From Muribaculaceae bacterium (GTDB lineage Bacteria > Bacteroidota > Bacteroidia > Bacteroidales > Muribaculaceae), in assembly GCA_017621055.1 (NCBI GenBank), contig JAGATX010000014.1, positions 1-51,057 of the forward strand: a stretch of DNA of 51,057 nucleotides, in the 5' to 3' direction. Below, piece after piece: positions 40,016 through 43,807 of the stretch. The notes beneath the pieces are model-generated. The model was not told where the DNA came from, did no database searches, and saw only the letters and a list, made by a program, of their open reading frames with translations. The translations under genes and the position numbers were made by a program. Each line of letters starts with the position of its first letter. Position 1 is the first letter of the stretch.

Positions 40016-40030
40016 CGGCAGAATACGGCA

Positions 40031-40082
40031 CAGTGGACAGATTTGGCTGCTTGCAACCACTCGAAAAAATGCTAAAATCGCC
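40031..40082 (+). promoter_or_regulatory. SAM-II-like riboswitch aptamer in the metK leader
   Basis: AGTGG (40032-40036) pairs with CCACT (40057-40061). The loop contains GATTTGGCTGCTTGCAA (40040-40056), and an A-rich stretch ending AATGCTAAAATCG follows (40068-40080). This is the layout and much of the conserved sequence of SAM-II (metA) RNAs as I recall it: P1 around GAUUUGGC...GCUUGCA, then GCUAAA that forms the pseudoknot with the loop (GGC in the loop can pair with GCC at 40080-40082). SAM-II RNAs bind S-adenosylmethionine and switch off methionine/SAM genes; here the gene makes SAM. A covariance search was not possible. Confidence 0.72.
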
Positions 40083-40205
40083 GCGCGGACGCGCCCCGGC
40101 AGGGGTTGGCGCCGCCGACGGCTGCCCGGAAGGCTCGATGGCCCCGGCAAAAAGGGTGTTTATTCGTGGCAAGCGCTCATTCGGGCCGCAAGCCGCGATT
40201 TTTTT
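40083..40205 (+). promoter_or_regulatory. GC-rich expression platform with possible attenuator
   Basis: This stretch between the aptamer and metK has several GC-rich hairpin arms. It ends in GCGATTTTTTT (40195-40205). AAAATCGC (40074-40081), at the 3' end of the aptamer, can pair with GCGATTTT (40195-40202). Ligand-dependent pseudoknot formation could therefore compete with a terminator-like fold. This is inference; no local simple hairpin directly before the T run is strong. Confidence 0.4.
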
Positions 40206-40235: not shown

Positions 40236-41534
40236 ATGAGCTATCTTTTCACATCTGAATCAGTATCGGAAGGTCACCCCGACAAAGTGGCCGATCAGAT
40301 ATCCGACGCCATCCTCGACGAATTTCTTGCACGCGACGCCGCATCGAAGGTTGCCTGCGAAACCCTTGTCACCACCGGTCAGGTAGTCGTTGCCGGCGAA
40401 GTCAGGAGCAACAGCTATATCGACATACCCGAAACGTGCCGGCGCGTTATCCGCCGCATAGGCTACGACCGCAGCGAGCTGCGCTTCGACGCCGACTCGT
40501 GCGGCATTCTGTCGGCCATCCACGAGCAGAGCCCCGACATCAACAGGGGCGTGGAGCGCGCCACCGCCGCCGAGCCGGGCGCCGGCGACTAGGGCATGAT
40601 GTTCGGATACGCCACCAACGAGACGCCGCTGTACATCCCCCTCACCCTCGCCCTCAGCCATGCCCTGCTGATGACCCTCGCCGACATACGCCGCGAGGGC
40701 GTCGACATGACCTACCTGCGCCCCGACGCCAAGAGCCAGGTGACGGTGGAATATGGCGACGACGGACGTCCCCGCCGTATCGACACCATAGTGATCTCCA
40801 CTCAGCACGACGATTTCATAGACCCCGCGACCGACGGAATCACCCGCGACGAGGCAGACCGCCGTATGCTCGACATCATAAAGCGCGATGTGGCAAACAT
40901 ACTGATACCGCGCACGCAGGCGGCTCTCCCCGAGGAGCTGCGGCCGCTACTCGACGCCGGCTTCATCCTTCACGTAAATCCCACCGGCAAATTCGTTATC
41001 GGCGGACCCCACGGCGATACAGGTCTGACCGGCCGCAAGATAATAGTGGACACTTACGGCGGCCACGGCGCTCATGGCGGCGGCGCTTTATCCGGCAAGG
41101 ACCCCAGCAAGGTGGACCGCTCGGCGGCATATGCAGCGCGGCACATGGCCAAGAACCTCGTCGCCGCCGGCATTGCCGATAAAGTTCTCATTCAGGTAGC
41201 CTATGCCATAGGCGTGGCCGAGCCCGTGAGCCTCTTTGTCGATACCTTCGGAACATCGAAAGTGGCAGTTCCCGACAGCGGGATCGCCGACCGTCTGCGC
41301 TCGCTCTTCGACATGACTCCCTACGGAATTGAGCAGCGCCTCAAGCTCCGCCAGCCCATCTACGAGGAAACGGCGGCATACGGTCACATGGGCCGCATGC
41401 CACGCACCGTGACAAAAACGTTCACCGACCATGGCTGCAAGCCCTTTGAGCGCACCGTCGAGCTCTTCACCTGGGAAAAACTCGACCGCGTGGACGATAT
41501 CCGCGCCGCTTTTGCCGACGTGGCCGCCCGCTGA
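40236..41534 (+). pseudogene. metK: S-adenosylmethionine synthetase interrupted by an in-frame TAG
   Basis: The reading frame spans 432 codons plus the final stop and covers the whole enzyme, which makes SAM from ATP and methionine. Normal features include [56 protein letters not shown] and [12 protein letters not shown]. At 40590-40592 a TAG stands where the conserved CAG (Gln) of GAGDQGMMFGY belongs, giving frames of 118 and 312 residues; the second could restart at ATG 40596. Two other signature positions deviate: the Gln before GAGD is Pro (EPGAGD), and GGGAFSGKD reads GGGALSGKD with a rare TTA codon. Nearby genes (transporter at 22141, helicase at 30953) use TAG as a real stop, so reassignment is unlikely. 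Either a decaying copy, a read-through gene, a split protein or a sequence error. Promoter, leader and terminator are intact. Confidence 0.85.
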
Positions 41535-41710: not shown

Positions 41711-43807
41711 ATGGCAACCTTAGAGAAAATCAGATCGAAATCAGTGCTGCTTTTCGTAGTGATAATAGTAGCGCTGCTTGCCTTCATCCTCGGTGACTTC
41801 ATGACCTCGGGAAGCACCTATTTCAGTGACCCCACCACAGTAGCTAAAGTGGACGGCGTAAAGGTAGAATATCAAGACTACCAGAGACAGATATCGCAGC
41901 TCAACGACCAGCTGCAGAACACCGGACGCAGCGCCAGTGCCGACGCCATAGCCTCGCAGGCTCTTCAGAACGAACTCTCGCGCAAACTCATGGACCGCGA
42001 ATATGCCCGCCTCGGCATCCACGTCACCGACAATGAGCTTCGCGACGCCATGTTCGGCGCCAACGCCGTGCCTCAGGCTCAGCAGATGGTGGCATACCTG
42101 TCGCAGGCCATCGGTCTGAGCACCCCCGATGCCGCCGCTGTGGCCAACGCCATACAGAACCCCGCAACATACGGCATCACCGCCGACGACGCTGCCCAGA
42201 TGCGCACCCTCTGGCAGCAGATGGAGACCGGTATTGAAGAAGGCCTCAAGGACGCCAAGTTCCAGAGCCTGATGAGCGGTCTGTTCACTTATAACAACCT
42301 CGACGCCCGCGAAACTTACAACGACGTAGCCGCCACAGCCATGGTTAGCTACACCGTTCTCGATGCCGCCGGCCTGCCCAACGACAGCATAGAGTTCAGC
42401 GACGCCGACGTGCGCGCCCTCTACGCCAGCCGCCGCGAGGAATTCGCCATCAGCGAGCCCAAACGCCAGATCGACTACATCTACGTTCCTATCGAACCCT
42501 CGGTAGCCGACAAAGAGCTGGCCGACAACACCGTGGCCGAAGCCGTTACCGGCCTCGCCAACACCGAAGGCCTCTCCGCAGTAACCACAAACCCGCGCTT
42601 CATCACCAACACCGCCCGCACGTCGGCCTCCGACATCCGCATGCCTCAGCTGCGTGAGTTCGTCACCGGCGACAGCGTAGGCGCCGCTCGCCTGATCACC
42701 CGCACCGGAAACGACTACACCATTGCCAAAATCCTGGGTAAGGACACCGGCATCGACTCCATCGAAGTCACCGCCGTGCGCATGGCTCCCGGCATAAATG
42801 CACAAGCCATCGCCGACGCTCTCGCCGCCGGCACCTCCCTCGAGGAACTCAACAGCGACTCTGTTCAGGGCATGCAGCAGTGGGTAAGCCTCGAACTCCC
42901 CGACATCGACAGCCGTCTGCACGACGCCCTGGCCACTGCCGCAATCGGCACGCCCTTTGTCTACACCGACACCGTGCAGGGCACCGAATACTCCATGGTT
43001 TACCGCGTCGACAACCGTCACGCTCCCGTGCCCTTCTACGACTACGCGGTGATAACCTACACCGTCGATCCCTCCGCCGAGACCATCAGCGATCTCTCCG
43101 GCAAGCTCCGCGCCTATGTGAGCAACAACTCGTCGGCCGCCGATTTCCGCGCTAATGCTGCCGAAAACGGCTACTCCGTCCTTTCCGACGAAGTGGGCGC
43201 ATCGTCCGTGCAGATAGGTCGCGCCGAAGGCAGCCGCCCATTCATCAAATGGGCCATGGAGAACGGCGAAGGAAAAGTAAGCCCCGTTTTCCAGGACGAC
43301 CGTCAGAGCTACCTTCTCGCTCTCGCCGTTGCCGACATCTACGAGGACTATCGGCCCTACAACAGCCCGCTGATCTACACCGGCCTTCAGGAATATGCCC
43401 GCAACGCCAAGAAAGCCAAAACCCTGGCTGAGCGCTATGCTGGCGCCGCCAACGATCTCCAGGGCTACGCCGCCGCCTTCGGCAGCGAAGTGCGCAACGG
43501 CTCCGTGAACATCAGCAACCCCATGCTCCTCACCCTGGGCTATGCGCAGAGCGAACTCATGGGCGCCATGACCGCCGCAGCTCCCGGCACCCTCACAGGC
43601 CCCGTCGCCGGCCAGAACAACATCGTTGTCTTCCAGGTCGATGAGATAAACACCGAGAACCGTCCCTTCAGCGAAGAGCAGTACGGCATGCAGTTCCTCC
43701 GTTCCTACGGACCGCTGCGCTCGCCCAACCTCCTGCTGCCCCTCCTTATAGGCAAGAACAAGGTTGAAAACCGCTCGCTCAACTTCGTGTCGGCGCCTGC
43801 GGAATAA
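41711..43807 (+). CDS. PpiD/SurA-like periplasmic folding chaperone
   Basis: 698 residues. One N-terminal membrane helix (about 11-29, SVLLFVVIIVALLAFILGD) is followed by a SurA_N-like region (VAKVDGVKVEYQDYQRQISQLNDQL, ELSRKLMDREYARLGIHVTDNELRDAMFG). The middle part (about 230-450) occupies the position of parvulin-type PPIC domains, but the catalytic motifs are not obvious, so isomerase activity is doubtful. A long C-terminal part is typical of Bacteroidetes PpiD. It is anchored in the inner membrane and probably helps fold outer-membrane and secreted proteins. Own promoter upstream and a terminator downstream. Confidence 0.88.
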   Translation: MATLEKIRSKSVLLFVVIIVALLAFILGDFMTSGSTYFSDPTTVAKVDGVKVEYQDYQRQISQLNDQLQNTGRSASADAIASQALQNELSRKLMDREYARLGIHVTDNELRDAMFGANAVPQAQQMVAYLSQAIGLSTPDAAAVANAIQNPATYGITADDAAQMRTLWQQMETGIEEGLKDAKFQSLMSGLFTYNNLDARETYNDVAATAMVSYTVLDAAGLPNDSIEFSDADVRALYASRREEFAISEPKRQIDYIYVPIEPSVADKELADNTVAEAVTGLANTEGLSAVTTNPRFITNTARTSASDIRMPQLREFVTGDSVGAARLITRTGNDYTIAKILGKDTGIDSIEVTAVRMAPGINAQAIADALAAGTSLEELNSDSVQGMQQWVSLELPDIDSRLHDALATAAIGTPFVYTDTVQGTEYSMVYRVDNRHAPVPFYDYAVITYTVDPSAETISDLSGKLRAYVSNNSSAADFRANAAENGYSVLSDEVGASSVQIGRAEGSRPFIKWAMENGEGKVSPVFQDDRQSYLLALAVADIYEDYRPYNSPLIYTGLQEYARNAKKAKTLAERYAGAANDLQGYAAAFGSEVRNGSVNISNPMLLTLGYAQSELMGAMTAAAPGTLTGPVAGQNNIVVFQVDEINTENRPFSEEQYGMQFLRSYGPLRSPNLLLPLLIGKNKVENRSLNFVSAPAE

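Follow-up and report, generated by a model that had tools for sequence, protein, structure and literature searches.

An in-frame TAG in the only metK found in a Muribaculaceae draft genome: probable consensus error or recent strain-level mutation

The metK gene analysed here, from a Muribaculaceae draft genome, carries a single in-frame TAG, which probably reflects either an error in the consensus or a nonsense mutation that arose very recently, at strain level, in a normal gene. This reading, which an earlier note on the same DNA had listed as the case against its own interpretation, is the likeliest of those that we weighed; the likelihood given in words to every reading below is a judgement, not a computed value. 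Of the note's interpretation, the view that recoding is unlikely stood, sustained relaxed selection did not, and the second metK that it had suggested was not found in the incomplete assembly. We propose that the gene would be an ordinary metK, native to a Bacteroidales-type bacterium and preceded by a riboswitch, and that the TAG would be present in the draft consensus but absent from the gene of the living population, through a base or consensus error or a mixture of strains. Alternatively, the TAG may have arisen so recently that little else in metK has decayed. The remainder of the gene and the riboswitch look to be in good condition, which makes a sequencing fault or a very recent strain-level fault most likely, rather than a new kind of gene; we infer that the TAG stems from an error or from a transient mutation at strain level.

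Counted in favour of this reading were the lack of a significant rate excess, a dN below dS, the retention of 117 of 120 otherwise invariant columns, of the ligand residues and of the riboswitch, the occurrence of the TAG in this copy only among those compared, the position of the gene as the sole metK of its assembly in a genus whose good genomes all have a match, the RsmA gene in the window, an isolated TAG in gyrB of another genus genome (G012), and the failure of any of 15 other stop candidates outside the window to show a family running across the stop. Counted against it were the clustering of departures in metK, with cysS and groEL clean and gyrB changed at 3 of 375 columns; the change of three near-invariant sites, which amounts to more than one mutation; the lack of a GG-ending 3-mer; and a number of unique changes that exceeds that of the sister gene with 8 of 9 outgroups, a non-significant difference.

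The metK frame and its surroundings

The window, meaning the whole stretch of DNA that was analysed, is an entire contig (C22) of 51057 bases, and its relevant features are collected in Table 1. By direct reading, metK runs in one frame throughout, from an ATG at 40236 to a TGA closing at 41534. The coordinates and residues given in the earlier note proved correct: the TAG is codon 119, while codon 114 encodes Pro and codon 285 Leu. Both pieces match the TIGR01034 metK profile and together reach position 360 of 377. Across the TAG, the profile match scores 482.7 bits with "1 TAG" inside, above the curated cut-off of 309.4 bits; the single pieces each score below it (160.9 bits for the N-terminal and 306.4 bits for the C-terminal part). 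The ATG that opens the C-terminal part lies one codon past the TAG, and the frame from there is open to the end. Compared with MetK as described by TIGR01034, PF00438 and PF02773, the gene is alike in profile coverage across the stop, in its single copy and in the named ligand residues, but it differs from the TIGR01034 family in the TAG, the Pro and the Leu, and its reading frame is not uninterrupted. The TTA codon that encodes the Leu is rare, as had been noted, yet in use: in the ORFs of the sampled genome stretches it accounts for 257 of 9280 codons for Leu.

Table 1. Features of the metK locus in the window (positions are those of the whole stretch)
Feature	Position	Strand	Details
SAM-II riboswitch aptamer (predicted)	40027..40085	+	RF01726, 56.6 bits, gathering score 44; 150 nt upstream of metK start
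metK N-terminal part	40236..40589	+	118 codons ahead of TAG; TIGR01034 E 4.2e-47, profile 1-115; PF00438 149.3 bits
metK codon 114	40575..40577	+	CCG = Pro; Gln in 109/109 relatives
In-frame TAG	40590..40592	+	codon 119 of metK; the frame's only interruption
metK C-terminal part	40596..41534	+	312 codons + TGA; TIGR01034 E 2.6e-91, profile 118-360; PF02773 207.3 bits
metK codon 285	41088..41090	+	TTA = Leu; Phe in 109/109 relatives

The RF01726 match upstream of metK is full length (model positions 1-60 of 60). A SAM-II element was found upstream of metK in 20 of the 20 relatives searched, drawn from the 29 genus loci, at 53.9-62.9 bits; the score in the window falls inside this range, and no difference from the riboswitches of these relatives was noted. 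Judged by the match, the aptamer is a predicted SAM-II riboswitch that may bind SAM and control metK. In one relative (G045), the SAM-II riboswitch of metK has a tRNA gene (L006:1209-1282) just ahead of it.

The downstream neighbour of metK (41711-43807) also has a match next to metK at 9 of 109 loci, of which 7 belong to the genus, most loci being represented by short flanks; cysS gave no match in the short flanks of those metK loci. The proposal of a displaced gene was rejected on this shared neighbour. The window further encodes RsmA, a user of SAM (238.5 bits).

Conserved sites and the condition of the gene

All 109 relatives (29 of 29 genus loci, and 80 of 80 loci from named genomes, nearly all of which carry Bacteroidota group titles) encode Gln at codons 114 and 119 and Phe at codon 285. 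The TAG therefore stands at a Gln position, as the earlier note had claimed. Its claim of three departures at very conserved sites was likewise upheld by a leave-one-out comparison of 108 full-length proteins (2 of 110, L017 and L028, were left out as shorter than 400 aa), in which the window metK differs from all others at 3 of the 120 columns that are otherwise invariant, the joint highest count; 89 sequences have no departure, 11 have one, 6 have two and 2 have three. The other protein with three, L061, is the MetK of a Bacteroidales draft genome; it carries A32R, G90A and Y365F, and has no stop. Within the genus set (44 copies, some partial), the window metK departs at 4 of 171 columns, second to L026 with 5. 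The three departures are extreme, not unique, and the stop itself is unique in the sets compared. The window gene is the sole stop-bearing copy among the 44 genus copies, some of them partial, and the sole metK match with an internal stop among 80 re-examined family genomes, in which several matches are partial; these 80 were picked from 397, the window's own included, to cover genomes outside the genus with two matches or weak matches. In the search of the 397 family genomes, no stop inside metK occurred among the matches listed, the window's own standing outside that list. The nearest metK found has 77% DNA identity, and the top-ranked named relative, a Muribaculaceae draft genome, has 70% protein identity.

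Relative-rate tests against the sister copy L005 with nine outgroups, counted without the stop column, gave chi-squared values of 0.02-1.92 that were never significant, with 18-31 unique changes in the window metK and 20-28 in the sister. A gene long relaxed would carry more changes, and the rate result thus speaks against long relaxation. Comparison of the window gene with copies L003-L009 gave a dN of 0.145-0.190, well under a dS of 0.87-1.26, a pattern that indicates purifying selection on metK. Given the lack of a significant rate excess, the low dN and the intact riboswitch, sustained relaxed selection, one of the explanations in the earlier note, is not supported, and a long-term pseudogene was rejected on the same three grounds.

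The E. coli MetK ligand residues named in the parts of PMC3853416 and PMC1282579 that we drew on (His14, Glu55, Gln98, Ser99, Phe230, Asp238 and Lys269) are retained in the window metK. Residues 14, 55, 98 and 99 were read from an alignment of the N-terminal part (3-118) on 1fug_A (3-118), whereas Phe230, Asp238 and Lys269 were located by spacing, at window residues 253, 261 and 292; the check covers the residues so placed, with Asp163 left unplaced. The equivalent of Arg229, a carbonyl contact, is Lys in the window metK and in 103 of 109 relatives. The adenine-stacking residue is given as Phe230 in E. coli in a passage of PMC3853416 and as F250 in human MAT-alpha-2 in a passage of PMC4107924. 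The equivalent of Phe230 is residue 253 of the window metK, within a GKFVIGGP stretch, and it is intact there and in all 109 relatives. By counting, codon 285 corresponds to E. coli position 262, 24 residues past the Asp238 equivalent, and an identification of the changed Phe with the adenine-stacking residue of PMC3853416 was rejected. These features suggest an enzyme that has been functional up to the present.

Copy number of metK and decoding of the stop

The draft genome comprises 2,030,685 bases in 34 contigs, is 93.5% complete and has 0.18% contamination, and this fairly good quality was counted against error. Searches with PF00438, PF02773 and TIGR01034 gave a single metK match; the second functional copy that the earlier note had suggested was not found in the 93.5%-complete assembly. 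An archaeal-type SAM synthetase, considered as a substitute, was rejected since none was found in the assembly. The assembly also lacks a match to rpoB, as do other good genus genomes (7 of 33, the window's own included), and rpoB was therefore unusable as a control; the missing rpoB and the missing Trp (CCA) and Ile (GAT) tRNAs are probably an assembly gap.

The metK gene is essential in E. coli. A metK match was present in 33 of 33 good genus genomes, the window's own included, and in 374 of 397 genomes of the family search. It was absent from 2 of 222 good family genomes, and the gene is thus not strictly universal in these assemblies; one family genome without a metK match (G279) is given as 99% complete. 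Two matches were found in 10 of the 397 genomes, and re-examination of 8 of these left 3 family members with two full-length copies each (G083, G347 and G389). One of the two copies in G083, and likewise in G347, aligns to profile positions 1-376, unlike most copies, and may represent a second metK type in the family. The two copies in G389 score equally, and that genome has 6% contamination.

These counts bear on the possibility that the lesion is real and tolerated through a second metK, or through SAM uptake, encoded in the unassembled part, with this copy just starting to decay. We consider this fairly unlikely. The incomplete assembly without rpoB, the family genomes with two full-length copies and the two good ones without a match are consistent with it, and the three departures clustered in one gene would fit the onset of decay. 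However, the two Pfam halves and TIGR01034 agree on a single match, no archaeal-type synthetase is present in the assembly, two matches are confined to just 10 of 397 genomes (with two full-length copies in 3 of the 8 re-examined, the contaminated G389 among them), and the gene has no significant rate excess.

The decoding of TAG was assessed in a 440 kb sample consisting of the window and 20 further stretches of the genome. Its 210 long ORFs terminate in TAG (25), TGA (108) or TAA (77). From 839 candidates for a same-frame stop, the best 25 were taken, of which 7 lie inside the window and 18 outside, and 15 of these 18 were followed up in a pairwise family scan; the scan covered candidates outside the window and left out the six other window candidates. 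None of the 15, which look coding-like on both sides, has a family that continues across the stop. Eight pairs have a Pfam match on both sides with no continuation, one of them being two near-complete members of one family; in the other seven, at least one side lacks a family match, and what chiefly points to a new gene is a possible start at most 8 codons from the stop. As far as the candidates were followed, the 440 kb sample has one clear interior TAG, that of metK, and the code consequently looks standard. The RF1 gene prfA (G000:C21:19196-20293) scores 443.7 bits, above its cut-off of 423.25, and has no stop. Of 43 tRNA matches in the genome, one is cut by a contig end. Typing of the stretches that hold them revealed a tRNA-Gln (CTG) and no tRNA with a CTA anticodon, in a set that has gaps, as neither Trp (CCA) nor Ile (GAT) was found.

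Leaky decoding is distinctly unlikely. Here, a near-cognate tRNA-Gln would read through UAG, and low SAM would relieve the SAM-II riboswitch until enough full-length enzyme was made. The TAG does occupy a Gln position in a genome with tRNA-Gln (CTG), the predicted riboswitch would in principle allow derepression, and a passage of PMC5289835 reports that E. coli tRNA-Gln misreads UAG. The same passage, however, ranks UAG below UGA for read-through (PMC5289835); RF1 is intact by its model, no CTA tRNA is among those found in the gapped set, and this reading would not account for the changes at codons 114 and 285.

In a wider form of this idea, the amber would be fixed in the sole metK, the SAM-II riboswitch would drive expression at SAM shortage until read-through, or reinitiation at 40596, sufficed, and the leaky or split enzyme would have been adjusted by the changes at codons 114 and 285; we judge this quite improbable.

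Very improbable, too, is a split SAM synthetase in which pieces of 118 and 312 aa, the second restarted at the ATG at 40596 by termination-reinitiation, would assemble into a working enzyme. The nearness of that start, the open frame beyond it, the loss of just two residues and the retention of the invariant columns save 114, 119 and 285 would suit such an arrangement, but the break cuts through a conserved domain within its first signature motif, and no stop-broken copy occurs in the other 43 genus copies (some partial) or in 79 other family genomes.

Reassignment of the stop codon TAG to Gln is NCBI code 15. The window gene resembles it in having TAG at a Gln site, but the genome-wide form was rejected and is close to refuted, much as the earlier note had expected, because RF1 is kept and intact by its model, TAG serves as an ordinary stop in long ORFs, no CTA tRNA was found in the gapped set and the candidates followed in the 440 kb sample include no other clear interior TAG.

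Control genes and isolated stops in draft genomes

Control genes of the same genome showed few changes at genus-invariant columns, with 0 of 269 in cysS, 0 of 351 in groEL and 3 of 375 in gyrB (alignments of 30 of 47 cysS rows, 30 of 46 groEL rows and 31 gyrB rows, the last being 30 loci and the window's own). These counts indicate no general noise in the genome, and the clean controls count against a simple error. No stops in rpoB, cysS, groEL or prfA were present among the matches listed.

Sequencing errors are described, in the relevant part of PMC4787001, as biased to sites after GG-ending 3-mers, with GGC sequences and inverted repeats also cited there as error-prone. No GG-ending 3-mer precedes any of the three metK sites on either strand, and a sequencing-motif cause of the three is thus unsupported by the GG-ending motifs of that part of the source. 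The stretch of codons 114-119 is GC-rich and folds strongly, which, set beside the same part of PMC4787001, supports error weakly at most. Literature searches on premature stops in metK, the GAGDQG signature, metK essentiality in Bacteroides, stop errors in draft genomes and a SAM transporter returned nothing on point, and we make no claim that none is in print; the premature stops in the part of PMC9251427 that came up are in other genes, not metK.

A real, fixed TAG would mean that synthesis of a core enzyme proceeds across or around a stop under riboswitch control, a testable case of natural nonsense tolerance. If, as is likelier, the TAG is an error or a strain variant, the case advises caution, in that neither recoding nor gene loss can be concluded from single stops in draft genomes. 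A second case from the same genus supports this caution. The gyrB of the draft genome G012 (L264; G012:C19:7686-9581) is 95% identical to L253 and has a lone TAG at residue 418, a position occupied by Ser in 29 of 30 further copies and by Thr in the remaining one. The two cases are alike in having one TAG in an otherwise well-conserved gene, but differ in the residue replaced, Gln in metK and Ser or Thr in gyrB. Isolated TAGs in key genes thus do occur in this genome set, with no common amino acid at the sites.
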